NCBI GenBank assembly: GCA_018814405.1
Contig: JAHIZO010000010.1
Location: forward strand, 62,001 to 126,000
Length of the DNA stretch: 64,000 bases
DNA from: Gammaproteobacteria bacterium
GTDB taxonomy: Bacteria > Pseudomonadota > Gammaproteobacteria > Burkholderiales > Gallionellaceae
Direction: 5' to 3'
Below the pieces are notes generated by a model. That model saw only the letters and a list, made by a program, of their open reading frames with translations. It was not told the origin of the DNA and searched no databases. Numbering within the stretch: position 1 is the stretch's first letter; each line of letters begins with the position of its first letter. Positions 1 through 15,900 of this stretch are shown here, one piece after another. Made by a program: the position numbers and the translations under genes.

Positions 1-366
1 ATGCGGCGTAGCAAGTTCGCATACTGTTTTGAGAACACTCTAGGGCCGGATAACTACATCACGGAAAAGATATTCGATAGTTTCCTGAGCGGGTGTGTGC
101 CAGTGTACTGGGGTGCTGAGAACGTGCTGGAGCACATCCCGGAAGATTGCTTCATAGATCGCAGGGACTTTGAAGGCACAGCGGGAGTTCACCATCACTT
201 GCTGCAGATCGGGTCTGAGCGGTATGCAAGTTATCAAAAGGCGATCACGAACTATTTGCACAGTGACCAGGCACAACGATTCAGCGCCGGCCAGTTCGTG
301 TCGCGTATCGCAGAACATATAATGCAGGACTTGAAACAGCATCCTGACTACGAGACGGACCAATGA
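1..366 (+). CDS. GT10 (alpha-1,3-fucosyltransferase-type) glycosyltransferase, C-terminal part
   Basis: This is the C-terminal 121 residues of a family GT10 glycosyltransferase, which moves fucose or a similar 6-deoxyhexose from a GDP-sugar to a glycan. The conserved GT10 donor-binding block is visible at residues 5-38: KFAYCFENT, then YITEKIFDSFLSG, then CVPVYWG. Family members run to roughly 300 residues or more, so the true start lies left of the window and the ATG at base 1 is probably an internal Met. The stop overlaps the next gene by ATGA. GDP-sugar genes downstream (7106-9216) fit a GDP-6-deoxysugar donor. Confidence 0.85.
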   Translation: MRRSKFAYCFENTLGPDNYITEKIFDSFLSGCVPVYWGAENVLEHIPEDCFIDRRDFEGTAGVHHHLLQIGSERYASYQKAITNYLHSDQAQRFSAGQFVSRIAEHIMQDLKQHPDYETDQ

Positions 367-1235
367 GCGACATCGTCATCTTTTGCAAAAGCTACCACCG
401 TGACCTTGAGCGCGCAGTGGTCATGGCGGAGAGTGTGCGTCGCTACAACCGGGAAGGATTGCCGCTATATATCTCGGTGCCGCAGTGCGACCTTAATTTG
501 TTTCAGCGACGCATCGGCACGCAGGGAATCAACTGGCTGTGTGACGAAGACGTCATCCGCGCTAATCCCTCTCTTGATATGCAGGCCTATCTTGCCTTGC
601 CGGGACACATTTCCCAGCAGGTGGTGAAGGCGGAGTTCTGGCGCGTCAATCCCGCGCCCAATAGTGTTTGTATCGATTCGGACTCGCGTTTCATCCGTGA
701 TTTCTTTGCCAGCGATTTCCTGGCACCTGACGGCACGCCATACACCATATTGCATGAGGGAAAGCCCTTCATCGAATTTTGCCTGACGCACGGCATACGC
801 GAGACGGAACGGCATTTCGAGGCCTTGTGTGAAGATATGCGCAAGGTGTTCGGGCGGGTAGGTCCCTCCTACGCATTCAATCCCTTTCCGGTGATCTGGA
901 GTCGCAAGGTGTGGCAGGATTTGCAGGTGCAGCTGGAAGAAGAGGGCAGCGATATCATGCGCGCCATCGTCGCCCACCCCTATGAGTCTTCCTGGTATGG
1001 CGAGGCGCTACTGAAACATCGTTCTATACCACTGCTGCCAAAAGAGCCGATCTTCAAAGCGTATCTGTACTTCGAGGAATACGAGCGCGACAAGCGCGAC
1101 GGTATGACAGAGGAGATGCTCGCGCGCTTCTATCTGGGCGTGGTCTACCAGTCGAACTGGTATCCTCACCGCCTGAAGTTTCTGAAACGTATTGCCTATA
1201 AGTTGAAGCGGCGTATGCAACGCTATCGCAACTGA
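363..1235 (+). CDS. DUF6492-type putative glycosyltransferase
   Basis: A 290-residue soluble protein that begins [18 protein letters not shown], matching the opening of DUF6492 proteins found in polysaccharide clusters and thought to be GT-A-like transferases. An acidic [12 protein letters not shown] segment near residues 98-109 could be the nucleotide-sugar/metal-binding DxD site (inference). The ATG overlaps the stop of the upstream GT10 gene by 4 nt, so translation is coupled. The C-terminus is strongly basic ([16 protein letters not shown]), which suggests peripheral membrane association. Substrate is unknown. Confidence 0.6.
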
Positions 1236-1255
1236 CAAGTACACAGAGGTATCCA

Positions 1256-2026
1256 ATGAAAGCAGTCATTCTTGCAGGGGGTCTAGGCACACGCATCAGC
1301 GAAGAGACTTCGCTGCGCCCCAAGCCCATGGTGGAGATCGGCGGCAAGCCGGTGCTGTGGCATATCATGAAGATGTATTCGGCCCATGGCATCAACGAGT
1401 TCGTCGTTTGTTGCGGCTACAAGGGCTATCTGATCAAGGAGTATTTCGCCAATTACTTCCTGCATACATCCGATGTCACCTTCGATATGCAGCACAATCA
1501 GATGGAGGTGCACCAGCGCTTTGCCGAGCCGTGGAAAGTGACGCTGGTCGATACCGGCGAGAACACCATGACCGGTGGGCGGTTGAAGCGGGTGCGCGAC
1601 CACCTTGGCGAAGAAGATTTCTGTTTTACCTACGGTGATGGCGTGAGCGACGTGGACATCACGGAATCACTTTCCTTCCACCGCCGCCATGGCCGGTTGG
1701 CGACGCTGACGGGTGTACAGCCGCCGGGACGCTTTGGCGTGCTCAACATCACGGGTGATCATGTGACGAGCTTCGAGGAGAAGCCGCACGGCGATGGAGG
1801 CTGGGTGAATGGCGGATTCTTTGTGTTATCCCCCAAGGTGATCGACCTGATCGAGAACGATACGACTGTCTGGGAGCGCGGCCCGATGGAGCAGCTGGCA
1901 CGGGAAGATCAGCTCTCGGCCTACCTGCACCATGGATTCTGGCAGCCCATGGATACGTTGCGTGACAAGAACCATCTCGAAGAGCTGTGGCAATCCGGCA
2001 AGGCGCCATGGAAGATGTGGAAATGA
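1256..2026 (+). CDS. rfbF: Glucose-1-phosphate cytidylyltransferase
   Basis: Makes CDP-D-glucose from CTP and glucose-1-phosphate, the first step of CDP-3,6-dideoxyhexose synthesis. The 256-residue length is typical. The N-terminal nucleotidyltransferase signature [19 protein letters not shown] is followed by [19 protein letters not shown], and YGDGVSDVD supplies the metal-binding acidic site. The WNGGFF-type motif ([12 protein letters not shown]) is present. An AGAGGTATCC stretch just upstream of the ATG supplies a Shine-Dalgarno. The stop overlaps the rfbG start (ATGA at 2023). Also called ddhA or ascA in other systems. Confidence 0.95.
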
Positions 2027-3087
2027 ACGTCGAATTCTGGCGCGGCAAGAAGGTGTTCCTGACCGGCCACACCGGCTTCAAGGGCGGTTGGCTGAGTCTG
2101 TGGTTACAACAGCTCGGAGCAGAGGTGACCGGCTATGCTTTGCAGCCACCGACAAATCCAAGCCTGTTCGAAGTCGCGAACGTTGCGCAGGGTATGACCT
2201 CAATCATCGGCGACATCCGTGACGCGGAAGCGCTGAGCAAAGCCATGCGTGACGCAGAACCCGACATCGTCATTCACATGGCCGCGCAGCCGTTGGTGCG
2301 CTACTCCTATGTGAACCCGGTAGAGACCTATTCCACCAATGTGATGGGCACGGTACACCTGCTGGAAGCGGTGCGGCAGACACCTTCGGTGCGCGCCGTG
2401 GTGAACGTCACCAGCGACAAGTGCTATGACAACAAGGAATGGGTGTGGGGTTATCGCGAGAACGAAGCCATGGGCGGCTTCGACCCTTACAGCAACAGCA
2501 AGGGTTGTGCTGAGCTGGTGACCTCGGCATACCGCAATTCATTCTTCAATCCAGAGAAATATGCAGACCATCGCGTGGCGCTTGCGACCGGCCGCGCCGG
2601 TAACGTCATCGGTGGCGGCGATTGGGCGGACGACCGTTTAATCCCCGATATCCTGCGTGCCATCAGCGATAACAAGCCGGTCGTGATCCGCAGTCCGCAT
2701 GCGATCCGCCCCTGGCAGCATGTGCTGGAGCCGCTGTCCGGCTATCTGCTATTGGCGGAAAAGCTGTACACACAAGGAGTCACTTATGCCGAAGGCTGGA
2801 ACTTTGGCCCAAGTGACGAGGACGCGAAACCAGTGCAGTGGATCGTCGAGCAACTTACTGCGCAATGGGGTGAAGGTGCGAGCTGGCAACTGGACGCGGG
2901 TGAGCATCCACACGAAGCGCATTACCTCAAGCTGGATTGCTCCAAGGCCCGGATGCGCCTCGACTGGCAGTCGCGCTGGCATCTGGACCATACGCTGGAG
3001 ATGATCGTCGCTTGGCAACAAGCATGGCTGGCGCAGCAGGATATGCACAGCTTCACCCTGAAACAGATCGAACAATACGCACAGTGA
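2023..3087 (+). CDS. rfbG: CDP-glucose 4,6-dehydratase
   Basis: NAD-dependent SDR that converts CDP-D-glucose to CDP-4-keto-6-deoxy-D-glucose. From the ATG at 2023 it is 354 residues and opens [22 protein letters not shown], with the Rossmann glycine motif TGHTGFKG. The substrate-fixing [10 protein letters not shown] and the catalytic YSNSK ([10 protein letters not shown]) follow. An in-frame ATG exists at 1987, but that would extend the protein into rfbF. The ATGA overlap at 2023 and alignment with known RfbG N-termini favour 2023. Confidence 0.94.
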
Positions 3088-3097
3088 GAGAAACATC

Positions 3098-4414
3098 ATG
3101 AGCACCAAAGAACAACTCCGCAGCCAGATCGCAGATCTCGTCAAACAATATGCCGACCTCGCCTATGCGCCCAGCGCATTCGAAGCGGGCAAGCATGCCG
3201 TGCCGCCTTCGGGCAAAGTACTCGGCGCTGCCGAACTGCAGAACATGGTGGAAGCTTCGCTCGACGGCTGGCTGACGACCGGCCGCTTCAACGACGCTTT
3301 CGAGAAGCGCCTCACCGAATTCCTTGGGGTGAAGCATGCGCTCACCACCAACTCCGGCTCTTCCGCCAACCTGTTGGCTTTCACCGCACTCACCTCGCAC
3401 AAGCTGGGCGAACGCGCCATCCAGCCGGGCGACGAAGTCATCTCGGTGGCGGCGGGTTTCCCCACCACGGTGAACCCCATCCTGCAATTCGGTGCAGTGC
3501 CGGTGTTCGTCGATGTGCAACTCGGCACCTACAACATCGACCCGGCCAAGCTCGAAGCGGCGATCACACCCAAGACCAAAGCCATCATGCTGGCCCACAC
3601 TCTGGGAAATCCCTACGACTTGGGCGCCATCACCGCGCTGGCCAAGAAACACAATCTGTGGCTGATCGAAGATTGCTGCGATGCGCTGGGTTCCACATAC
3701 AACGGCAAACTGTGCGGCACTTTCGGCGACATCGGCACACTGAGCTTTTACCCCGCCCACCACATCACCATGGGCGAAGGCGGGGCGGTGTTCACCGACA
3801 ACGACCAGCTGCGCCAGATCGTCGAATCGATCCGCGACTGGGGCCGCGACTGCTACTGCCAGCCTGGCAAGGACAACACCTGCGGCAAACGCTTCTGCCA
3901 GAAACTGGGCGACTTGCCCTACGGCTACGACCACAAGTACACCTATTCCCATTTGGGCTACAACCTGAAGATCTCAGACATGCAGGCCGCCTGTGCACTG
4001 GCGCAGATGGACCGGGTGGAGGAATTCATCGCCGCGCGCAAGGCGAACTTCGCATACCTGAAGAACGGCCTGAAGAACTGCGAAGAATTCCTGCTGCTGC
4101 CCGAGGCGACGCCCAACAGCGATCCGTCCTGGTTCGGCTTCCCTATCACCATCAAGGCGGACGCGGGCATCAACCGCGTCGACCTGCTGCAATACTTCGA
4201 CCAACACAAGATCGGCACGCGCCTGCTTTTCGCCGGCAACCTGACGCGTCAGCCCTACATGCAAGGTCGCAACTTCCGCATCGCGGGCGAACTGACCAAC
4301 ACCGATATCGTGATGAACGATACTTTCTGGATCGGCGTGTATCCGGGATTGAGTCGTGAGATGCTGGACTTCGTCATTGAGAAGCTCGAAGCGTTCTTCG
4401 GTCTGAACTTCTGA
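3098..4414 (+). CDS. rfbH: CDP-4-keto-6-deoxyglucose 3-dehydratase (E1, PMP and [2Fe-2S] dependent)
   Basis: Removes the C-3 hydroxyl of CDP-4-keto-6-deoxyglucose. 438 residues, aminotransferase fold. Two diagnostic features are visible. The PLP-lysine of normal aminotransferases is replaced by His ([14 protein letters not shown], His221). The iron-sulfur ligands form C194-X57-C252-X1-C254-X7-C262, exactly the spacing known for the Yersinia E1 enzyme. The gene starts 10 nt after rfbG with GAGAGAAACATC upstream. The partner reductase E3 (ascD/ddhD) is not in this window. Confidence 0.95.
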
Positions 4415-4430
4415 CACGACAGGACCTGCA

Positions 4431-6140
4431 TTGAAAGCCTCCGACGCACTCGCCAGATTCCTGATCGCCCACCGGGTGCATACCTGTTTCGAGCTGGTGG
4501 GCGGCATGATCACCCACATGCTCGACAGCTTGGCTGAATCCGGGCAGTTCAACATCATCTCAATGCATCACGAGCAGTCAGCGGCTTTTGCGGCCGAGGG
4601 TGTGGCCCGCTACAGCAAAGGCAAGACTGTCGCCGTTGCCATGGGCACCAGCGGGCCGGGTGCCACCAATATGGTCACCGGCATCGGCGATTGCTGGTTC
4701 GATTCAGTGCCATGTCTATTCATTACCGGTCAGGTCAATACGCGCGAACTTAAGGGCGAGCGCGTTATCCGTCAGCAAGGCTTCCAGGAGCTGGACATCG
4801 TCGAGGTGGTGAAGTCGCTGACCAAATACGCGGCACGGGTGGAAAGTGCGGAAGCGCTGCTGCCCGAGCTGCACAAAGCCTTGTCGGCGGCGTTGAGCGG
4901 GCGGCAGGGACCGGTACTGCTGGATATCCCCAACGACGTGCAGCGGACCGAGCTCCCGGATGCGCTGGTCGAGAAATGGTTGGCCATGCCGCTGGATATT
5001 GCGCCGGCCTCGCAAGTGTCGGCGGGGGATCTGGAACAGATAACAGCCCTGTGCAAATCGGCCAAACGTCCGCTCATCTGTGTCGGAGGCGGCGCCCGCT
5101 GGTCCGATGCCATGGATGACTGGCTGGCGCAGGCAGACCGGTTCGGCATCCCCTGCGTGGCTACGCTCATGGGGCATGAGCGTGTGGTGGCGCGCGGCAA
5201 CTACTTCAACATGATCGGCAGCTACGGCAACCGTGAGGCGAACTGGGCGGTGCAGAACTGCGATCTGCTGATCGTGCTGGGGGCGCGGTTGGATGTGCGG
5301 CAGACCGGATCGGATGTTGAGGATTTCGCCCGTCATGCGCGTGTCATCCAGGTCGACATCGATCCCGCGCAACTGAACAATCGCGTGCATGCCGACCTGA
5401 GCGTCTGTGCGACGGTTGAGAGTTTCTTCCAGACATTTCCCCTGCGGGACGATGTGTTCCCAAGCTTGGACAATGGCTGGTTGACCGAGCTTGAGCGTCT
5501 GCGCGAGATGGCAGGCGCAAATGAATATGCAGACTGGAAGATCAGCCCGAGCGAGCTATTCAAGAAACTGAACAGGATTCTGGCTAAGCGGCCGGTCGAC
5601 TACGTTTGCGATGTTGGCAACCACCAGATGTGGGCCGCGCAGAGTTTGCGCTTGTCGCCCGAGCAGGCTGTCCATTACAGCGGCGGCATGGGCGCGATGG
5701 GCTTCGCTTTCCCGGCCGCATTGGGCATCGCGGTCGAATCCAGGGGCAAGGTCGTGGTGATCACCGGCGATGGCAGCTTGCAGATCAACATCCAGGAACT
5801 CGATACGCTAAAGCGCATGGACCTGGATGTGACCATCATCGTCTTGAACAATGTCGTACTAGGCATGGTCAAGAATTTTCAGGACATGTATTTTGACGGG
5901 CGCAACCAATCGACCCAGAAGGGTTACAGCAGCCCCGACTTCACGGATATCGCCAGAGCGTACGGAATCGCCGCGCAACGTATCAGCAGCGCCGCTGACA
6001 TGGATCGGGTGCTGCCGTTGATCGCCGACCACAAGGGGCCGCTACTCATCGAAGTGATGATGGAAGGGGCGACGGAATGCCGACCGCGTCTGGCATTCGG
6101 GTCGAAGCTGGACGAGCAGTATCCCAAACTGGCCGACTGA
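4431..6140 (+). CDS. ThDP-dependent carboligase, acetolactate synthase-like (YerE-like)
   Basis: 569-residue thiamine-diphosphate enzyme of the acetolactate-synthase fold. The activating glutamate is in MHHEQSAAFAAEG (Glu48), and the metal/ThDP motif is GDGSLQIN (446-449), followed by VIVLNN-type residues near 465-475. In Yersinia pseudotuberculosis O:VI, YerE transfers a two-carbon unit from pyruvate to CDP-4-keto-3,6-dideoxyglucose; its place directly after rfbFGH suggests the same job here (inference). It starts with TTG at 4431 behind AGGACC. A biosynthetic acetolactate synthase is less likely because no ilvN/ilvC neighbours are present. Confidence 0.75.
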   Translation: MKASDALARFLIAHRVHTCFELVGGMITHMLDSLAESGQFNIISMHHEQSAAFAAEGVARYSKGKTVAVAMGTSGPGATNMVTGIGDCWFDSVPCLFITGQVNTRELKGERVIRQQGFQELDIVEVVKSLTKYAARVESAEALLPELHKALSAALSGRQGPVLLDIPNDVQRTELPDALVEKWLAMPLDIAPASQVSAGDLEQITALCKSAKRPLICVGGGARWSDAMDDWLAQADRFGIPCVATLMGHERVVARGNYFNMIGSYGNREANWAVQNCDLLIVLGARLDVRQTGSDVEDFARHARVIQVDIDPAQLNNRVHADLSVCATVESFFQTFPLRDDVFPSLDNGWLTELERLREMAGANEYADWKISPSELFKKLNRILAKRPVDYVCDVGNHQMWAAQSLRLSPEQAVHYSGGMGAMGFAFPAALGIAVESRGKVVVITGDGSLQINIQELDTLKRMDLDVTIIVLNNVVLGMVKNFQDMYFDGRNQSTQKGYSSPDFTDIARAYGIAAQRISSAADMDRVLPLIADHKGPLLIEVMMEGATECRPRLAFGSKLDEQYPKLAD

Positions 6141-6150
6141 GCGGGGTGAG

Positions 6151-7086
6151 ATGAAGATAGCGATACTGGGAGCGACCAGCCAGATAGCCAGAGACCTCAT
6201 CCTCTCGTTCTCGCACGAAGCTGGGAAGCAGTTGTTCCTGTTCGCCAGACGCCCAGCGGAGGTCGAAGGGTGGCTGGCAACCAATGGAATCAAAGGCCGT
6301 TACCCGGTCGCCGATTTTTCCGGATTCGGTATGCAGGACTTTGATGCGGTCATCAATTTCGTCGGCGCAGGAGACCCGGCACAGATCGCATCCATGGGCA
6401 GTTCCATTCTGGACGTCACACTGCGCTTCGACGAGATGGTGCTGAGCTACCTGGAATCGCATCCTGCCTGTCGCTACCTGTTCCTGAGCAGCGGGGCAGC
6501 CTATGGTTCGAACTTCTCCGAGCCTGCCAGCCGCGACACACCAGCTATTATCAAGATAAACGACCTTGCGCCGCACGAGTGGTACGGTGTGGCGAAGCTG
6601 CATGCCGAATGCCGGCATCGGGCGCATCCCAGCCTTTGCATCTTCGATATCCGCGTGTTCAATTACTTCAGCCGCACGCAGGACATCGAAGCGCGTTTCT
6701 TGATCACAGATATGCTGCGCGCCATCCGTGATGGCTCGGTGTTGAAGACGAGTGCAGACTACATCGTGCGCGACTATCTGCATCCATCTGACTTTCACTC
6801 ACTGGTGAATGCTCTGTTATCCGCCCCTGCGAACAACACAGCGGTGGATTGTTACAGCAGGGCCCCAATAGACAAATCGACCCTGCTGGCTGCCATGCGT
6901 GATCACTTCGGGCTAAGCTATGAAGTGGTCGGACAGTCTGCCACTGTTAACGCGACTGGCAGCAAGCCGCATTACTATGCTGTGAATCGGCGTGCAGCAG
7001 AGTTTGGGTATTTGCCCGTCTGGACCTCGCTGGAGGGCTTGTTGAGCGAAGCAGAACTTATTCTGGACAAAAGTAAGCAGATTTGA
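6151..7086 (+). CDS. NAD(P)-dependent SDR epimerase/reductase (YerF-like candidate)
   Basis: 311-residue extended SDR. The N-terminus MKIAILGATSQIARDL forms the Rossmann turn, with Ser where a second glycine is usual. LSSGAAYGS and WYGVAKLHAE supply the Ser and YxxxK catalytic residues, and FDIRVFNYFS is the substrate-binding NxY/F-type region. It begins 10 nt after the carboligase behind GGGGTGAG. In yersiniose synthesis YerF reduces the ketone on the newly attached two-carbon branch; position and fold suit that role, but the exact substrate is inferred. Confidence 0.7.
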   Translation: MKIAILGATSQIARDLILSFSHEAGKQLFLFARRPAEVEGWLATNGIKGRYPVADFSGFGMQDFDAVINFVGAGDPAQIASMGSSILDVTLRFDEMVLSYLESHPACRYLFLSSGAAYGSNFSEPASRDTPAIIKINDLAPHEWYGVAKLHAECRHRAHPSLCIFDIRVFNYFSRTQDIEARFLITDMLRAIRDGSVLKTSADYIVRDYLHPSDFHSLVNALLSAPANNTAVDCYSRAPIDKSTLLAAMRDHFGLSYEVVGQSATVNATGSKPHYYAVNRRAAEFGYLPVWTSLEGLLSEAELILDKSKQI

Positions 7087-7105
7087 CTACGAACGGAAGC
7101 GCTAT

Positions 7106-8047
7106 ATGACGTTAAACAGAACAGCAAGGATATTTGTCGCAGGTCATCGCGGTATGGTGGGCGCAGCCACGTTGCACCTTCTGCAGCAGCAGGGCTTTAC
7201 TAACCTTGTGACCGCAGGAAGCAGGGAGCTTGATCTGACCAACCAACTCTCCGTCAACGACTTCTTCTGCAATGAGAAGCCAGAGGCAGTAATCATGTGT
7301 GCGGCCAAAGTGGGAGGTATACAAGCCAATATTGAAAACCCGGCCACATTCTTGCTCGACAACCTGCAGATGCAGAACAACGTGATGGCTGCATCACTGA
7401 AGCATGACGTGAAGCATTTCGTCTTTCTTGGTAGTTCCTGTATCTATCCAAGGGAATGTCCGCAGCCTATGAAAGAGGAGTATTTGCTCACCGGGAAACT
7501 TGAACCGACCAACGAAGGCTATGCCATAGCCAAGATTGCTGGGATAAAGTTGCTCGAAGGGATGCACAAGCAATACGGCTTCAACAGCATCAGCTTGATG
7601 CCGTGTAACCTGTATGGTCCCAATGACTCGTTCGACCTGCAACACTCGCATGTACTGTCCGCGCTGGTGAAGCGCTTCGAGGACGCACGGATGGCTAACG
7701 CAGCCTCGATTACCCTCTGGGGAACGGGGATCGCACGGCGTGAGTTCATGCATGTGGATGATATGGCACGGGCGATCCTATTCATGATTGAGAACTACAA
7801 GGAGAGTCGCTTCATCAATATCGGCGTCGGGGAAGACATCAGCATCAAGGAGTTGGCCGAAACGGTGGCAGCCATGACCGGTTTTATGGGCGAGATACTA
7901 TGGGATAATTCCAAGCCCGACGGTATGCTTAAAAAATGCATGGATGTCAGCCGCATGAAGGCTTTGGGATTCATGCCTCAGATAACGCTGAATGCAGGAA
8001 TTGGGCAGATGATAGAAATATACAGAGGACTGAAAGCCACGCCATGA
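7106..8047 (+). CDS. GDP-L-fucose synthase or GDP-L-colitose synthase (epimerase/reductase)
   Basis: 313-residue SDR very like Fcl/WcaG. It has FVAGHRGMVGAA (NADP-binding), GSSCIYPRECPQPM with the catalytic Cys, YAIAKIAG (YxxxK), and NLYGPND with a following SHVLSAL His. Fcl makes GDP-L-fucose from GDP-4-keto-6-deoxymannose; ColC, a close relative, makes GDP-L-colitose after 3-deoxygenation. Its stop overlaps the ColD-like gene (ATGA at 8044), which favours ColC, while GT10/GT11 neighbours also suit fucose. gmd and manC are not seen in the window. Confidence 0.85.
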   Translation: MTLNRTARIFVAGHRGMVGAATLHLLQQQGFTNLVTAGSRELDLTNQLSVNDFFCNEKPEAVIMCAAKVGGIQANIENPATFLLDNLQMQNNVMAASLKHDVKHFVFLGSSCIYPRECPQPMKEEYLLTGKLEPTNEGYAIAKIAGIKLLEGMHKQYGFNSISLMPCNLYGPNDSFDLQHSHVLSALVKRFEDARMANAASITLWGTGIARREFMHVDDMARAILFMIENYKESRFINIGVGEDISIKELAETVAAMTGFMGEILWDNSKPDGMLKKCMDVSRMKALGFMPQITLNAGIGQMIEIYRGLKATP

Positions 8048-9216
8048 TTCCATTGATGAAGAATGCGTTCCTTAACGAATATGAAACTAAGAAGGCGCTG
8101 GCGGAATTCATCCTGCAAGCGAGCCGCCTTAGTATGGATGCTGAATGTCTCAAATTCGAGCGCAAGTTCGCTGAATACCAAGGCCGCAAGGAGGCCGTGC
8201 TGTTCAACAGCGGGGGGAGCGCCAATCTGGCTATGCTCCAGGCTTTGAAGAATCTTGGGCTCCTGAAAGAGGGTGACAAGGTCGGATTCTCGGCTCTGAC
8301 TTGGTCCACCAATACAATGCCTATCATCCAAATGGGGCTGGTGCCTGTCGCAATCGATTGCGAGATTTCAACGCTCAACGTGATGTCTCATAATCTTGAG
8401 GCACGATTGGAACAGACTGAGCTCAAGGCACTGTTCCTGACCAATGTTCTTGGCTTCACCGGGGACATTGAACGCATCCAGACGATCTGTCGCGAGCGTG
8501 GACTCATTCTTCTGGAGGACAATTGCGAATCACTCGGCACGGAACTTCCCTGCGGCAAGGCCGGTAACTTCGGCATGGGTGCCAGCTTCTCCTTCTTCGT
8601 CGCGCATCACATGTCGACCATTGAAGGCGGCATGGTTTGTACGGACGATCAGGAATTCGCTGAGATGTTGCGCATCGTTCGAGCCAATGGGTGGGACAGA
8701 AACCTCACCGCACAGCAGCAGCACAAATGGCGCCAGAAATTCAAAATCACCTCGGAATTCGAGGCTAAATATACTTTTTATGACCTCGGCTTCAATCTCA
8801 GGCCCACTGAAATTACAGGGTTCCTCGGGCAATATCAGATGCAATTCCTCGACCAGAACATCAAGTGCAGAGAGGATAATTACTTGCGGCTTGAGAAGTT
8901 GGTTCTGCAGAATGATGACTTGGTCCCGCTGAATCATGCTCACATCAATACGTTGTCTACTTTCGCCATCCCCGTTGTGTGCAAGACGCCGCAACTGCGC
9001 AATCAATACCTTGCCAGATTTTCAGGGGCGGGCATTGAGATACGCCCCATGATCGCAGGCAACATGCAACGCCAACCCTTCTTCGGGAAATATGTGCAAG
9101 AGCGCTACGAGCTGCCGGGCACGGATTTCCTGCATGACAACGGCTTTTATTGCGGAAACTATCCAGAGCTTTCTGAAACCGATCTCGAAACCATTTCGAG
9201 CTGCCTGTATTCTTAG
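8044..9216 (+). CDS. colD: GDP-4-keto-6-deoxy-D-mannose 3-dehydratase (ColD-like)
   Basis: 390-residue DegT/DnrJ-family PMP enzyme that removes the C-3 hydroxyl of GDP-4-keto-6-deoxymannose on the way to colitose. The start at 8044 overlaps the upstream stop (ATGA); a longer in-frame extension to 7936 would lie inside that gene. The catalytic lysine is replaced by His (FFVAHHMSTIEGG, His188), the same residue number as in E. coli ColD (388 aa). Other ColD-like blocks are ALTWSTNTMPIIQ, LLEDNCESLG and IRPMIAGNMQ. No iron-sulfur CxC motif is present, unlike RfbH. Confidence 0.82.
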   Translation: MIPLMKNAFLNEYETKKALAEFILQASRLSMDAECLKFERKFAEYQGRKEAVLFNSGGSANLAMLQALKNLGLLKEGDKVGFSALTWSTNTMPIIQMGLVPVAIDCEISTLNVMSHNLEARLEQTELKALFLTNVLGFTGDIERIQTICRERGLILLEDNCESLGTELPCGKAGNFGMGASFSFFVAHHMSTIEGGMVCTDDQEFAEMLRIVRANGWDRNLTAQQQHKWRQKFKITSEFEAKYTFYDLGFNLRPTEITGFLGQYQMQFLDQNIKCREDNYLRLEKLVLQNDDLVPLNHAHINTLSTFAIPVVCKTPQLRNQYLARFSGAGIEIRPMIAGNMQRQPFFGKYVQERYELPGTDFLHDNGFYCGNYPELSETDLETISSCLYS

Positions 9217-9252
9217 CAGTGCAGCCTGCATGTTGTACTGGAGCCGCTATCC

Positions 9253-10062
9253 ATGAAGATTCCCAAGATATTTAGACGATCACGTACGGATGAGTACTTG
9301 CCCACTGTGGTCATCTTCGCTGGCGGCATGGGTACGCAGATCATTCAAGCTGCGACATATTTCTCGCTGAAGGAAGCCGGCCAACCTGTATTCGCAGACA
9401 TGTCGTATTTCGACACTGAAGCCCGAATGGCGGAGGTCGGCAATGCTGGGCAGCTCACTCACTGGTTCTGGCAGCTGGACCAGTTCGGCCTGACACAGGA
9501 ATCATTCGAAAAAGCTTCGGGGCTAAACAAACGGAACGCAAATCTTTTGGCAGATGGCCCACGGATGATGGAACTTGGTCTGGCGGCGCTCAAGCAGCCT
9601 TCGATTCAGAATCGATTCGGAAATTCAGCTGATGTAGGTGATGTTCTATCACCTGACGTACTAGCTAACTTCCTTTGCATCCATATTCGGCGCGGTGATT
9701 ATGTCAACGTGGCAAGTCATCTGATAGCAGACGAAGAGTTTGTCAGGCTTATGAAAAAATTTTCGGGTTTAGTTAGTCATGCTGTGATTTTGTCTGATTC
9801 ACCGATACCAGAAGATTTCCGTGCTGCGGTTACTCCCTACTACAAGTCTGTATCGTTCCTTGACAACATAGATCCGTATAAATCACATCAAATCATGCGA
9901 AGTGCACGTACCTTGATTTGCTCCAACAGCACCTTCAGCCTGACTGCCGCAATGCTTAATCCTGAGGCATTGGTCGTGATACCCAAAAAGTGGTATGGGG
10001 GAAATGATTCTGAAGTGGAAGCCCCGATACAAGCATGCTGCACGTTTCAGGTCATGAAATGA
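9253..10062 (+). CDS. GT11 alpha-1,2-fucosyltransferase-type (possibly colitosyl) transferase
   Basis: 269-residue inverting glycosyltransferase of family GT11. Signatures are the N-terminal FAGGMGTQIIQAATYFSL, the donor-binding HIRRGDY at residues 144-150, and the C-terminal ICSNSTFSLTAAML. Family enzymes transfer L-fucose from GDP-fucose; some O-antigen members act with GDP-colitose, which the adjacent colD would supply (inference). Coding sequence around 9600-10000 is visibly richer in A/T codons than its neighbours, suggesting separate acquisition. It overlaps the next gene by ATGA at 10059. Confidence 0.83.
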   Translation: MKIPKIFRRSRTDEYLPTVVIFAGGMGTQIIQAATYFSLKEAGQPVFADMSYFDTEARMAEVGNAGQLTHWFWQLDQFGLTQESFEKASGLNKRNANLLADGPRMMELGLAALKQPSIQNRFGNSADVGDVLSPDVLANFLCIHIRRGDYVNVASHLIADEEFVRLMKKFSGLVSHAVILSDSPIPEDFRAAVTPYYKSVSFLDNIDPYKSHQIMRSARTLICSNSTFSLTAAMLNPEALVVIPKKWYGGNDSEVEAPIQACCTFQVMK

Positions 10063-11381
10063 CGGCGGCTAGTCAGTTGAATCTGGCCGAGAAGCATGAT
10101 GTTGAAGCGAGGCAGCATTGGCTCATCCTTTCCCACTGTTTCAACATGGATGGCCGTGCTGCCAGCCAGACCATCACCGACAAGTTGCCGCATCTGATGG
10201 CGCGTGGTATCGAGCCTATCGTTCTGAGCGGGGTGTCCGGCAGTCGCGATGACAGGTTCATGCATCTGCAACTATTGCCATGGGGCCCAGCCGGGCTGCG
10301 TTTCGACATGCGCCATGTGGTGGCGATGCATTTCGGTCGCGGCGTCGTTTACCGCGTCCTGACGCTAATCATCAGCCTGCTGCTTGCACCATTTATCGCG
10401 CTGGAACGTCTGATGTTCGGCTTGCAGAATCACGCGTCCTGGGTGTTTCCGGCAACGATCCGCTCTTTACTGCTGATACGGAAATACAAACCGACCGTCA
10501 TCTATTCAACCGGTGGGGCATACTCGGCACACTTGTCAGGATACTGGCTGAAGAAGCTCACAGGGTTGCCGTGGATTGCTGAAATACACGACCCGATGGT
10601 GATAGAGGGGCAGACCAAGAGCCGTAATGCCCGCTTCATGGCGAAGCTGGAAGGCATCATCTGCAAACATGCCGACCTGGTCTGGTGGTTCACCGATGGG
10701 GCTCTGGAGATGGCACGCAGACGGCATCCTCAGTTGGGTGAGCGGGGTATCGTCGTGCTGCCGGGGGCGGAGCCGCCCCGATCCGAGGTGGTCTACCAGC
10801 GCGGAGAGCAGATGGCGATCTGCCACTTCGGTTCTCTGGCAACCACGCGCTCGTTACTGCCTGTGGTTCATGCTTTGGATTCAGTTTTTGCGAAAGAGCC
10901 AGAGTTGCGTGCGTTCGTGCGTGTGCACGTGTATGGCGGGAAGATAGATCCGGTAGCTGTGCGCGCCATTGAGCAAAGAAAGTTGCAGGATGTGTTTGTC
11001 TCGCACGGAAGGCTGGAATACTCGGCAGAAACAGGACGCACGGGACGCGAGAGAGTGGTCGACCTGATGCATCAGGCCGACTGTTTACTGTTGGTACACG
11101 GGAGTATCGATGATTGCCGTGAATACATACCGTCAAAACTATATGAATATTTCTGGGCCAAGCGTCCGGTCATCGCCCTGACACACGAAAATGCACAGCT
11201 TGATTCGATGGTGCTCGAGCGTGGTGGTTATGTCGCCCCCTATGTCGATGAAGGTGCGGCGGAACGTGTGCTCAGGCAGGCCATACAGGATTGGCAGAAT
11301 GACCAACTGGTGGCCAGTCCGGTACAACCGCTGGGTGTAGAGCAGGCCGTTGAGAGAATCATTTCGGCATTGCAGCGATAA
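10059..11381 (+). CDS. GT4-like glycosyltransferase
   Basis: About 440 residues from the ATG overlapping the upstream stop (10059); an earlier ATG at 10035 would overlap the GT11 gene by 28 nt. The N-terminal half has a hydrophobic stretch near residues 100-120 (ISLLLAPFIALERLMFG), then WIAEIHDPM, a donor-fold element seen in GT4 enzymes. The C-terminal half carries CHFGSLATTRSLLPVVHAL and YIPSKLYEYFWAKRPVIAL, the GT-B donor-binding end. It probably adds a sugar to the repeat unit or lipid-linked acceptor. It is the last gene of the sugar operon. Confidence 0.75.
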   Translation: MTAASQLNLAEKHDVEARQHWLILSHCFNMDGRAASQTITDKLPHLMARGIEPIVLSGVSGSRDDRFMHLQLLPWGPAGLRFDMRHVVAMHFGRGVVYRVLTLIISLLLAPFIALERLMFGLQNHASWVFPATIRSLLLIRKYKPTVIYSTGGAYSAHLSGYWLKKLTGLPWIAEIHDPMVIEGQTKSRNARFMAKLEGIICKHADLVWWFTDGALEMARRRHPQLGERGIVVLPGAEPPRSEVVYQRGEQMAICHFGSLATTRSLLPVVHALDSVFAKEPELRAFVRVHVYGGKIDPVAVRAIEQRKLQDVFVSHGRLEYSAETGRTGRERVVDLMHQADCLLLVHGSIDDCREYIPSKLYEYFWAKRPVIALTHENAQLDSMVLERGGYVAPYVDEGAAERVLRQAIQDWQNDQLVASPVQPLGVEQAVERIISALQR

Positions 11382-11395
11382 GGCGATTCAAGCTT

Positions 11396-12217
11396 ATGTC
11401 CATCTATGCCATAGGCGACATTCAAGGCTGTTACAACGAGCTCCAGCAACTGCTGGAGCAGATCCACTTCGACCCTGCGCAAGACCATCTTTGGTTCGTC
11501 GGCGACCTGGTCAATCGCGGCCCCGGTTCGCTGGAGGTGTTGCGTCTGGTGAAGTCGCTGGGCGACAGTGCGATCACGGTGTTGGGCAATCATGATCTGC
11601 ATTTGCTGGCAGTGGCAGAGGGAATCGGCAAGCTGCACAGCAGCGATACGCTGGATGGGATATTGAATGCGCCGGATCGTGACGAGCTCCTGCACTGGCT
11701 GCGCCATCAGCGCCTGATGCATGCGCAAGGCGAACATGTGCTGGTGCATGCGGGGCTGTTGCCGCAATGGTCGGTGAAGCAAGCGCTGACATTGGCGCAG
11801 GAAGTTGAAAGCGCGTTGCGCAGCGATGAGTACGCGGTATTCCTAGAGAAGATGTACGGCAATGCGCCGCACGGCTGGGAAGACGATCTGCAGGGTTACA
11901 AGCGCCTGCGTGTCATCGTCAATGCGTTCACGAGGTTGCGCATCTGCACCCCGCAGGGCGAGATGGAATTCAAGTTCAAGGGTGAGGTTGGGAATATCCC
12001 CGAGGGCTATTTGCCGTGGTTCGAGATGAAGAAGCGTCGCAGTGCGGACGCCACGATCATATTCGGGCATTGGTCCGCGCTGGGGCTGAAGCTCGAACCG
12101 AACATCATCGCGTTGGATACCGGTTGCCTGTGGGGCGGGCCGATGACGGCAATACGGCTGCAAGATCGGCGCTTGTTCCAAGTGCGCTGCAACACCCCCG
12201 TCGCAAAACACTGGTGA
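11396..12217 (+). CDS. apaH: Symmetrical bis(5'-nucleosyl)-tetraphosphatase
   Basis: Hydrolyses Ap4A to two ADP, removing a stress-linked dinucleotide and, in enterics, RNA 5' caps. 273 residues with the metallophosphoesterase set in order: GDIQGCYNE (residues 7-15), FVGDLVNRGPGS, LGNHDLHLLA, LVHAGLLPQW and FGHWSALG. It starts 14 nt after the glycosyltransferase gene, so it may be co-transcribed with the polysaccharide operon. The stop is followed immediately by a shared terminator hairpin. Confidence 0.96.
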   Translation: MSIYAIGDIQGCYNELQQLLEQIHFDPAQDHLWFVGDLVNRGPGSLEVLRLVKSLGDSAITVLGNHDLHLLAVAEGIGKLHSSDTLDGILNAPDRDELLHWLRHQRLMHAQGEHVLVHAGLLPQWSVKQALTLAQEVESALRSDEYAVFLEKMYGNAPHGWEDDLQGYKRLRVIVNAFTRLRICTPQGEMEFKFKGEVGNIPEGYLPWFEMKKRRSADATIIFGHWSALGLKLEPNIIALDTGCLWGGPMTAIRLQDRRLFQVRCNTPVAKHW

Positions 12218-12253
12218 AAAAAAACCGGTGACGCGCGAGGCATCACCGGTTTT
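12218..12253. terminator. Bidirectional rho-independent terminator between apaH and infA
   Basis: An 11-bp inverted repeat pairs 12221-12231 (AAAACCGGTGA) with 12243-12253 (TCACCGGTTTT), with an 11-nt loop. On the + strand the stem ends in TTTT. On the - strand an 8-nt T run follows the stem. It can end both apaH and the cspA-infA transcript. Confidence 0.85.
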
Positions 12254-12270
12254 CTCAGCAATTACACTGA

Positions 12271-12528
12271 TCAGTATCTGCGCTTTTGCGGCACGAAAGC
12301 ACTGCGTCCTTCGATATGGCGGAACGTGATCCGTCCCTTGCTCAAATCGTAGGGCGACATTTCCAGCGACACCTTGTCACCGGCGATGATTCGGATGTGA
12401 TTCTTCTTCATCTTGCCGGCGCTGTAAGCGATGAGCTGGTGACCGTTCTCTAGTGTGACGCGATAGCGAGAGTCCGGAAGGACCTCGTCCACCACACCAT
12501 TCATTTCGAGCAGTTCTTCCTTTGCCAT
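12271..12528 (-). CDS. infA: Translation initiation factor IF-1 (long form)
   Basis: 85-residue S1-fold IF-1 that binds the 30S A site. The core [37 protein letters not shown] and [21 protein letters not shown] is typical. The usual 72-residue IF-1 ends soon after this; here a tail ([15 protein letters not shown]) adds about 13 residues, as in extra betaproteobacterial IF-1 paralogues. It follows the cold-shock gene by 3 nt, so the two form an operon and may serve cold adaptation (inference). A canonical ribosomal-operon infA would lie elsewhere. Confidence 0.93.
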
Positions 12529-12531
12529 AAA

Positions 12532-12735
12532 TTAAGCAGCGCGGATGTTAGACGCCTGCTGACCTTTAGGGCCGGCGACGATGTCGAATTCTACGGTCTG
12601 ACCTTCGGTCAGAGTCTTGAAACCCGAGCTTTGAATTGCGGAAAAGTGTGCGAACAGATCATCGCCGCCGTTAGAAGGCGTAATGAAGCCGAAGCCTTTG
12701 GAATCGTTGAACCACTTAACTGTACCTGTTGCCAT
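12532..12735 (-). CDS. cspA: Cold-shock domain protein, CspA family
   Basis: 67-residue single cold-shock domain that binds single-stranded RNA/DNA and melts mRNA structure. RNP1 is KGFGFITP and RNP2 is DLFAHFSAI; the start [11 protein letters not shown] is standard. The ATG at 12735 follows AGGAGATTCATC. The reading frame stays open upstream to 12912, but family length fixes the start. The next gene (infA) begins 3 nt after its stop. Roughly 170 nt lie between this start and the next upstream gene. Confidence 0.95.
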
Positions 12736-12908
12736 GATGAATCTCCTGATAAATTTAGGGCATACGCCCTGTTGGGAGCGAACTTCAAGACGGCACACAG
12801 ATGAAGGAGAAATACCGCAGGAAAGCGGATACAGAACCAAACAACAACGACAGACTTGAATCGCGGGGCGCACTATGTACTGTCTTGGCGAGAAATGCAA
12901 ATAAAAAA
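12736..12908 (-). promoter_or_regulatory. Long 5' leader of cspA-infA
   Basis: About 173 nt without a gene separate the EAL-protein stop from the cspA start. It has an A/T-rich end (12899-12909) and a T-rich stretch near 12840-12855. Long structured leaders act as thermosensors in E. coli cspA. I cannot fold it here and see no clear -35/-10 pair, so the regulatory role is inferred. Confidence 0.4.
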
Positions 12909-15900
12909 TCAATCCTGTGTGAAAGAGGATAAGGAGGCTTCGAATTGGGCGATCGGCACGGGCTTGCTGAACAGATAGCCTTGATAGTGCGGGCAGCCAT
13001 GCTTCATCAGCAGGTCACATTGTGTCTGCGTCTCCACCCCTTCTGCGATCACATCCAATTCCAGACTGTGAGCCATGGCGATGACGCTCTGCACGATGGC
13101 GCGGTCGCTGCTGCTCACTGCGATGTCACGAATGAATGACTTGTCGATCTTGAACTGGTCGAGGGGCAGGCGCTTCAGGTACTGCAGGGACGAGTAGCCC
13201 GTGCCGAAATCATCAAGGGAGAGCTTGATGCCAAGCTGCTTCAGGGCTTCCATGGTGGCGATGGTCTCGTCGACGTTCTCCAGCAGCATGCTCTCGGTCA
13301 GCTCGAGTTCGAGCTTGCCCGGATCGACGGCATGGTGACGTATCGCATCGCTGACTTGGGTGACGAAGCCGGCTTGGTGGAATTGTTTGGCGCTCACATT
13401 GATCGAGAGGCACAACCCGCTGGTCAGTGGGGTGTCCTCCCAGGCCTTGAGCTGGGCGCAAGCGTTCTCAAGCACCCATTCACCGATCGGCAGGATCAAT
13501 CCGGTCTCTTCCGCCAGCGGGATGAAATGGTCCGGCGAGACGAGGCCGCGTTCAGGATGGATCCAGCGGATGAGTGCCTCGGCGCCGAAGGGGCGATAGT
13601 TCTCATCGACTTGCACCTGGTAATACAGGCTGAACTGGGCGCGGGTCAGTGACTTGCGCAGATCGTCCTCAAGGGATGCTTTGGCATTCAGGCTTTCCTG
13701 CATCTGGGGATCGAAGAATCGCAGCGTGTTGCGTCCGGCCTTTTTCGCCTGATACATCGCGATATCGGCCTGCTTGATGAGCTCGTCTATGCTGTCTCGT
13801 CCCTCGCTGAACAAGGTGGCGCCGATGCTGGGGGAGTTGTGATATTCGTGGTGACCGAGCTGATACGGTTTGTTCAGCATCTCCATGATCTTTTCTCCCA
13901 CCCCTTCGGTCTGGGAGGCGGCCTCCAGCGCGTGGGGACTGAGGTCCTCAAGCATCACCACGAACTCGTCGCCGCCGAGACGGGCGACCGTGTCGCCTTT
14001 GCGGATGCACAGCTCGAGCCGGCGGGCGACTTCCTGCAGCAGCAGGTCGCCCTTGTCATGTCCCAGCGTGTCGTTGAGGGATTTGAAATTGTCCAGATCC
14101 AGGAACAGGACAGCGCCGAACTTCTTGCTGCGGCCGCAGGAGGACAACGCCTGCTGCAGACGGTCCAACATCAACCGACGGTTGGGCAGGCCGGTCAAGG
14201 GGTCATAGAACGCGAGGCTGCGGATCTCGTTCTCTGCCGCTTTGTGCAAGGTGATGTCTGTGACAGAAGCCACATAGTTGACGAGCTTGCCGTGCTCGTC
14301 CTTCAGGGCGGTGATGGTCAGGCGCTCCGGGTATATCTCGCCGCTCCTGCGCCGGTTCCAGATCTCTCCGCTCCAGCTGCCGTGGGTTTTGATCGCGTGC
14401 CACATGGCGGAATAGAACACCGCATCGTGTCTGCCTGATTTCAGGATGCGCGGATTCTGCCCGACGACCTGCTCCGGCTCATATCCGGTGATCTCGGAGA
14501 ACGCCTTGTTGACGCGCAGGATGTTGCCCTCGGCATCGGTGACCATGATGCCGTCCTGTGTCTCGAAGGCGGTGGCTGCGATGTGCAGTTCGGCTTCCGC
14601 CTGCTTGCGCGCGGAGATATCGCGCGAGGAATTGAAGAGTACCGGCTTGCCATCCAGCAGCAGCGGGATGCCGCTGATCTCCACATCGAAGACAGAGCCG
14701 TCCTTGCGCCTATGCTTGGATTCGAATTCCGAGCGCCCTTTGTATTCGAACTGACGTCGCAGGGCCATCCTGATCTCTGTGCTGTCCATGCTGGCATCCC
14801 ACTGCGAGACATTCATTCCGATGACCTCATCGCGCGTATAGCCGAGCATGGAACAGAAGGCTTCACTGGCTTCCATGACGTTGCCATGCTCATCCAGGAT
14901 GTGTATCCCGTCACTGCCGTTGTGCAGCAGCGCGCGATTCTTCTCGCTTTCGTGTTTCAGCGCCTGTTCGGCACGCTTGCGTTCAGTGATGTCGTTGCCG
15001 ACGGCGATGAAATGCTCGGGTTCTCCATTCCGGTTACGCGAGACCGCCACAGAGAGGGACAGGTCGTACAGGCTGCCACCCTTATGGCGATTGACCACTT
15101 CGCCATGCCAGAATCCCTTGCCTAGCACCTCCCCCCACATTTGCACGTAGAAGGCGGCGTCCTGATGATGGGAAGAGAGCAAGTCCACCGGGTTCTGCCC
15201 TAAAGCGTCCGCCTTGCTATAGCCGGTGATCCTTGTGAAGGAGGGATTGATGGAGATGATGCGGGAATCGGCATCGGTGATGACGATCGCATCGCTGCTC
15301 GTCTCAAAGACTTTGGCATTGATGCCTTGCTGGCGCTCAACCTCTGAGCGTTGTTCTGCGATCTGCATCTGACGCCGGTAGTAGGTGATAGACAAAGCGA
15401 TGATCAACAGCAGCGAACTCCCCGCCACAGCCAGCAAGGTCTTGGCACTGGTCCACCAGGGTAGCAGCACCCTGGCTTGCTGGAGGTGCGTGACCACCAC
15501 GACGGGATACAGGCTGGATGCGCGGAACGAAGTCAGGATAGCCTGCTTGTCGCGATCCGACGACGCGTATTCCCCATGCTCACGCTCCGGCAAGCGGAAT
15601 GCCTGCAGCAGATGGTTGAGCTGCATCCCCGCGCGGGTGGCGAGTGCGGAATCGATCAGTACGGTGCCGTCATATCTGAGCACTTGGACCGAGCCTTCCT
15701 CGGGCCCGAGTTTCTGCATGACGTGATTGGAGAAATAATCCGGATTGATGGCGAACAGCAACGTGACATGTCGCTTGCCTACCAACAGGTCGCGCGCAGC
15801 GGGGATGAAACTGTGCTCGTTCGGATCGGCGGCAGTCTGGGGTGTCGTCTCCCTGCCGTCCGAGAAATCCCTGCCTTCCCATGGTCTGCCGATGCGCAAG

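Follow-up and report, generated by a model that had tools for sequence, protein, structure and literature searches.

The question raised by this locus is whether five consecutive genes at positions 1256–7086 of a 64,000-nucleotide stretch from a genome of the Gallionellaceae (assembly GCA_018814405.1, contig JAHIZO010000010.1; the whole stretch is called the window below) encode the synthesis of the branched sugar yersiniose in its cytidine diphosphate (CDP)-linked form, and whether the fourth of them, a thiamine diphosphate (ThDP)-dependent enzyme, is the carboligase YerE or an acetolactate synthase. Judged from their sequences, the five genes are most probably a CDP-yersiniose-type pathway set in a large polysaccharide region. 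The known pathway, as outlined in PMC12247030 and PMC4753412, proceeds through CDP-glucose, 4,6-dehydration, 3-deoxygenation, addition of a two-carbon unit from pyruvate at the C4 ketone by YerE, and reduction of the acetyl group. The five genes of the window are the following:

1256–2026, plus strand: rfbF (ddhA), glucose-1-phosphate cytidylyltransferase (TIGR02623, 482 bits, cut-off 300)
2023–3087, plus strand: rfbG (ddhB), CDP-glucose 4,6-dehydratase (TIGR02622, 533 bits, cut-off 278)
3098–4414, plus strand: rfbH (ddhC; E1), CDP-4-keto-6-deoxyglucose 3-dehydratase (NF011936, 764 bits, cut-off 423)
4431–6140, plus strand: yerE, predicted ketone-accepting ThDP-dependent carboligase of YerE type (start codon TTG; three TPP-enzyme Pfam domains; 591 bits to structure 5ahk)
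6151–7086, plus strand: yerF, extended short-chain dehydrogenase/reductase (SDR), predicted reductase of the 4-C-acetyl branch (Pfam Epimerase; named from place and sequence)

All five frames lie on the strand, at the coordinates and in the order given by the first-pass annotation of this DNA, and its naming of RfbF, RfbG and RfbH holds, as all three proteins, which would supply CDP-4-keto-3,6-dideoxyglucose, score above the curated cut-offs. The spacings are not 10–17 nucleotides throughout, as it had stated, but −4 (RfbF and RfbG overlap), 10, 16 and 10 nucleotides. RfbH carries His 221/222 at the position of the aminotransferase Lys, and this residue is kept in all 70 RfbH rows of the alignment, as are Cys 194, 252, 254 and 262. 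Support for the TTG start of the ThDP gene comes from the sequence MKASDA, with which the window protein, 5ahk and six loci whose frames were viewed all begin.

On sequence grounds, the ThDP-dependent enzyme is a YerE and not an acetolactate synthase. Its match to 5ahk, which we take to be PpYerE of Pseudomonas protegens, extended over 566 residues, and all other solved structures scored at most 278 bits; the YerE of P. canadensis, from a ddhD–rfbFGH–yerE–yerF cluster (locus L060), matched 5ahk with 925 bits. A quick maximum-likelihood tree of 85 rows, for which the program warned of long (outgroup) branches, placed the window protein in a clade of 66 rows together with YerE of Yersinia, Pseudomonas, Vibrio and others (approximate likelihood ratio support, SH-aLRT, 99), and left the genome's own IlvB and Escherichia coli IlvI, IlvB and Gcl all outside it. 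Grouping with IlvB, which the first-pass annotation had named as the outcome contrary to its proposal, was thus not found, and also the identities differ, at about 50% with YerE from either Y. similis or P. canadensis and 31–33% with three IlvB-type enzymes. Three pocket positions were compared, presumably those that in acetolactate synthase II are Trp464, Met250 and the following His. In all 78 YerE rows the first of them is Phe, the second Ser (53), Ala (24) or Thr (1), and the third Tyr (78); the corresponding residues are Trp, Met and His in both E. coli IlvI and the genome's own IlvB, and Gln, Met and His in E. coli IlvB. All 78 YerE rows carry residues throughout an eight-residue insert that follows the GQV motif, and three acetolactate synthases fill three of the eight columns. 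Because the YerE rows were gathered with the window protein, what is informative in these comparisons is how YerE differs from acetolactate synthase. The ThDP-binding GDG...NN motif starts at residue 446 of the window YerE, the activating Glu48 is present in all 78 rows, and both the insert and a C-terminal ECRPRL motif are common to the window YerE and 5ahk. PMC12247030 mentions a structure of PpYerE as available and treats the YerE-like enzymes as a recognised family for which over 200 members are predicted; the window YerE is a new member.

The related loci were gathered with patterns from the window protein (the best 80 of 110), and the counts describe its relatives rather than all YerE. 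With the window they make 81 places, 78 of which are in the tree, three (L046, L081 and L082) having been dropped as short or truncated. The association of the genes is not due to chance, since matches to RfbF, RfbG, RfbH and YerE recur in the same fetched stretch in 66 of the 81 places, the order rfbF–rfbG–rfbH–yerE with gaps below 300 nucleotides is found in 44, and in 34 the SDR is next as well.

Some of the loci differ in layout. Two Pseudomonas loci (L057 and L080) have a second, distant ThDP enzyme of 610 residues, 28–30% identical to the window YerE, directly after yerE. In the Legionella-type loci L084, L085, L086, L087, L090 and L091, rfbF and a frame similar to RfbH lie on the opposite strand, and no match to RfbH reaches 400 bits. 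Four loci without a YerF of at least 200 bits (L026, L030, L037 and L064) have after yerE a frame of 356–385 residues with weak similarity to Fcl or RfbG, and the next frames have about 310–320 and, in some, 460–469 and 337–339 residues; these clusters are perhaps for a different branched sugar.

The SDR at 6151–7086 occupies the place of YerF and is 41–52% identical to the SDRs of Yersinia- and Pseudomonas-type clusters; by place and sequence it is taken as YerF. The order of a ThDP carboligase and then an SDR, likened in the first-pass annotation to YerE and YerF, is indeed that of Y. similis (locus L061). Ser113/114, Tyr145 and Lys149 are invariant in 15 aligned YerF sequences. A sequence search of YerF against solved structures gave no match at 0.001. 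The AlphaFold model predicts an extended SDR (mean predicted local distance difference test, pLDDT, 88; predicted template modelling score, pTM, 0.89), for which Foldseek placed an NADP-dependent reductase for CDP-glucitol (8v4h) third. By Z, 8v4h was first (31.3, root-mean-square deviation 2.7 over 303 residues, 14% identity), and the next different protein had 29.7. The modelled fold fits a CDP-sugar reductase and the general nucleotide-sugar SDR fold. Among the listed literature matches for CDP-yersiniose or YerF, no paper was, judged by title, about the YerF enzyme.

The family membership of the five proteins, their order, the conserved catalytic residues and the separation from acetolactate synthase are supported directly. 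From these we infer each reaction, pyruvate as the donor, the source of the electrons, which stereoisomer is made (yersiniose A or B) and where the sugar sits in the polysaccharide, as well as the surface location and the exact sugar. RfbF would make CDP-glucose, and RfbG would convert it to CDP-4-keto-6-deoxyglucose. RfbH, with pyridoxamine 5'-phosphate and a [2Fe-2S] cluster, would remove the hydroxyl at C3 and, given electrons by a reductase encoded elsewhere, yield CDP-4-keto-3,6-dideoxyglucose. YerE would decarboxylate pyruvate on ThDP and join the two-carbon unit to the C4 ketone, and YerF would reduce the acetyl branch to 1-hydroxyethyl. The product, CDP-yersiniose, would then be used by a glycosyltransferase of the surrounding region for a surface polysaccharide.

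Several points weigh against yersiniose as the product of the cluster. The donors vary among the YerE-like enzymes described in PMC12247030, where ErwE is said not to use pyruvate. No residue examined in the window YerE rules out a longer donor, and Val480, aligned with Val479 of PpYerE (own count), is Val also in acetolactate synthases. As many as 34 of the 81 places, some of them at contig ends, are without a YerF of at least 200 bits, so YerE alone does not imply yersiniose. For the predicted YerF, Foldseek gave a uridine diphosphate (UDP)-glucuronate 4-epimerase as the first match, likeness of fold at 14% identity is no proof of function, no NCBIfam model was reached, and PMC4753412 called the ketoreduction step of yersiniose synthesis uncharacterised in 2016. 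Also the E3 reductase (DdhD/RfbI) had no match of at least 150 bits in window positions 1–15000. Another branched 3,6-dideoxyhexose would result if the window YerE, like ErwE, took a 2-keto acid that is longer or hydroxylated; it would agree with the longer hydroxylated donors of ErwE and the short and long ones of JanthE (both in PMC12247030), and with the window YerE being only about 50% identical to its counterparts in Y. similis and P. canadensis. The YerF-type SDR directly after yerE, as in the Yersinia and Pseudomonas clusters, is circumstantial evidence against such a product, which is unlikely.

The E3 reductase bears also on the question of whether the pathway can run. E1/RfbH forms an intermediate that depends for its reduction on E3, a reductase that uses NADH, FAD and a [2Fe-2S] cluster (PMC8987622). 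The first-pass claim that rfbF, rfbG and rfbH make CDP-4-keto-3,6-dideoxyglucose is therefore right in the identities of the genes and wrong in their sufficiency, as E1 requires E3 and E3 is unlinked here. On the contig of the window (C4) the sole match at 0.001 was one of 19 bits at position 224513, about 98 kb downstream of the window end. An E3-type gene, ddhD, stands about 1 kb before the rfbF match in clusters of the Yersinia, Pseudomonas, Vibrio and Comamonas types; the name DdhD is presumed from this place, and NCBIfam gives for DdhD and for an E3-like protein on contig C1 alike only BenC-type scores, below the cut-off.

A cluster was counted as unlinked when its fetched stretch (flank at most 10 kb) held no 150-bit match to two DdhD queries, and as scorable when rfbF was at least 1.3 kb from the start of the stretch, the window (rfbF at 1256) being an exception backed by the contig search. 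The E3 gene was linked in 28 of the 64 scorable YerE places and unlinked in 36. The window belongs to a clade of 37 rows, including Gallionellaceae and other betaproteobacteria, methanotrophs and a zetaproteobacterium, in which E3 was unlinked in all 26 scorable places, the window included; the other ten unlinked places were in a distant group of Legionella, Bacteroidota and Ignavibacteria. On the YerE tree two changes of linkage are needed, and the counts cannot tell gain from loss. No description of E3 being unlinked across a whole clade was found in the literature, in which no search was aimed at this point.

The E3-like gene on contig C1 (L095:1465-2484, minus strand) is full-length, 40% identical to P. 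canadensis DdhD and neighboured by hemY-, SDR- and ubiX-like genes (names by eye); a weaker match on contig C9 had 27% identity over part of a 571-residue frame. The C1 gene was not accepted as a dedicated partner of RfbH, because E3-like matches at 1e-40 were present in 96 of 100 searched genomes (own included; a few are weaker paralogues, e.g. G030 with 34% at best) as against YerE at 1e-100 in 10 of 100 (own included), and because five of the 27 genomes with unlinked clusters had no close match. The other 22 had an E3-like match at 1e-50, the best in each being 55–96% identical. The five with none at this threshold (L032, L047, L048, L049 and L037) were four methanotrophs and a zetaproteobacterium, in which the best homologues of P. 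canadensis DdhD were 28–30% identical. All 28 genomes with linked clusters had an E3-like match, because their own ddhD matches; two Comamonas and Pseudomonas Irchel s3f7 had a further E3-like match of 52–54% besides the linked ddhD.

A substitute redox gene linked to the clusters was not found among the 25 largest families in an all-against-all comparison of 26 loci and the window, in which the families, judged by their window member and length and not by hidden Markov models, were confined to the sugar genes, genes of polysaccharide type, and shadow frames that are antisense or out of frame. A non-dedicated electron donor for RfbH would be the simplest reading, since the related 3-dehydratase SpnQ draws on ferredoxin/flavodoxin reductase pairs (PMC8987622). 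The opposite reading, that E1/RfbH has no electron donor and the cluster is non-functional in this organism, would agree with the missing E3 gene in the cluster and with an E3-like gene elsewhere that is not kept for this pathway. It is very improbable in view of the five intact and conserved genes (RfbH 96% and YerE 90% identical to those of the sister strain, Sideroxydans sp. LH_M3), the Fe-S cysteines kept throughout the RfbH alignment, and the precedent of SpnQ. It can be suggested tentatively, as a possibility short of a probable one, that the clade has no E3 gene of its own, lost or never gained, with the Fe-S cysteines of E1 kept, that E1 is fed by general reductases as SpnQ is, and that a second 3,6-dideoxyhexose is perhaps made by a ColD/Fcl-like pair present in the window. 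If so, sugar deoxygenation would be coupled to the redox metabolism of the cell.

Least credible, and rejected in view of the bit scores, the tree position, the pocket and the neighbouring genes, is the reading of the ThDP gene as one more large subunit of acetolactate synthase that stands in the polysaccharide region by chance: TIGR00118 (acetolactate synthase large subunit) is the best NCBIfam model of the ThDP protein and 5ahk was deposited as 'acetolactate synthase II, large subunit', but the score is below the cut-off (434 against 538 bits), the tree position and pocket differ from those of acetolactate synthases, the gene shares the fetched stretch with rfbF, rfbG and rfbH in 66 of the 81 places, and the next gene is an SDR and not a small subunit, a complete ilvB–ilvN–ilvC set being present on contig C6.

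The surroundings of the CDP-yersiniose-type genes form a long polysaccharide stretch rather than an isolated five-gene unit. The first-pass annotation had the five genes act as one unit; such a boundary is not visible in the sequence, because the same-strand run continues past the SDR with spacings of 19, −4, 36 and −28 nucleotides. Upstream of rfbF many glycosyltransferase-like frames (by eye) stand in the same-strand run. The features named outside the core five are:

1–366, plus strand: 3' end of a glycosyltransferase of GT10 type, fucosyltransferase-like (named by eye; the frame continues from L003:19145)
7106–8047, plus strand: second Fcl-like epimerase/reductase, in a variable stretch, candidate for a guanosine diphosphate (GDP)-colitose synthase role (NF047922, 422 bits, below the cut-off of 500)
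8044–9216, plus strand: ColD-like sugar 3-dehydratase, in a variable stretch (ColD structure 2gms 186 bits, E1 145 bits)
9253–10062, plus strand: GT11-family glycosyltransferase (fucosyltransferase-like), in the variable stretch (PF01531, 39 bits, cut-off 23.9)

Farther upstream on the same contig (L103, G000:C4:18000-37999) there are ManC-, ManB-, Fcl-, ABC-exporter- and pseudaminic-acid-like genes, named by eye, and Gmd.

The DNA of the sister strain (L015) aligns with window positions 1–2022 and 2035–7052 and then again from 10111. Since the alignment skips 7053–10110, these 3 kb with the Fcl-like, ColD-like and GT11 genes, absent at the same place in the sister strain, are either an insert here or a loss there. 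The ColD-like protein has the catalytic His in place of Lys and, in the alignment, no [2Fe-2S] cysteine motif, features listed for ColD in PMC8987622. Set against four proteins that are ColD or ColD-like it was 32–35% identical, and at 1e-60 it was matched only in its own genome among the 100 searched. The Fcl-like protein is 47% identical to the other Fcl-like protein of the genome, and Gmd on the same contig scored 614 bits. By sequence, the pair together with Gmd could make a second 3,6-dideoxyhexose such as colitose. Matches to Gmd, ColC and ColD (GDP-colitose type) were present in the fetched stretch of yerE in 12 of the 81 places (L017, L018, L019, L027, L032, L034, L035, L039, L050, L061, L075 and L077), spanning betaproteobacteria, a methanotroph, Yersinia, Vibrio and others. 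That the window pair would be the same genes as those was rejected at identities of 32–33% (ColD) and 37–40% (ColC).

The genome that holds the window has 2.38 Mb in 10 contigs and is 98.7% complete. The nearest named YerE is that of Sideroxydans sp. LH_M3, and the host is close to Sideroxydans, a genus of iron-oxidising lithoautotrophs. The description of the host as autotrophic in the first-pass annotation agrees with a RuBisCO large-subunit gene in the genome (403 bits, above the cut-off). A relative of Sideroxydans thus very probably carries, as far as the gene set tells, the means to make a rare branched surface sugar by a pathway known from other bacteria, and yersiniose-type synthesis would be extended to this group; the open PubMed Central literature, partly judged by title, gave no report of such surface sugars for Sideroxydans relatives. 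The carboligases about 50% diverged from the Yersinia and Pseudomonas YerE may find use in tertiary-alcohol synthesis, and the unlinked E3 raises the question of whether an E1-type 3-dehydratase can run on general reductases.

In comparison with known systems, the window has the same order of rfbFGH, ThDP carboligase and SDR as the yersiniose pathway of Y. pseudotuberculosis, for which Y. similis L061 was used as the stand-in (YerE 50% and YerF 41% identical to the window proteins). Y. similis has an E3-type gene directly before rfbF, while the window is without one. PpYerE, here taken to be 5ahk, has the same insert and ECRPRL motif, but about half of its residues differ, and the window protein belongs to its separate clade of 37 rows. 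ColD is the closest solved enzyme to the product of 8044–9216, although the ColD proteins of Y. similis and L017 are only 32–33% identical to it, and the Fcl-like partner is nearer to Fcl (46–50%) than to ColC (37–40%). Yersinia pseudotuberculosis O:6 has yersiniose together with colitose (PMC6436433), and the window has instead the divergent ColD/Fcl-like pair beside its candidate yersiniose genes.

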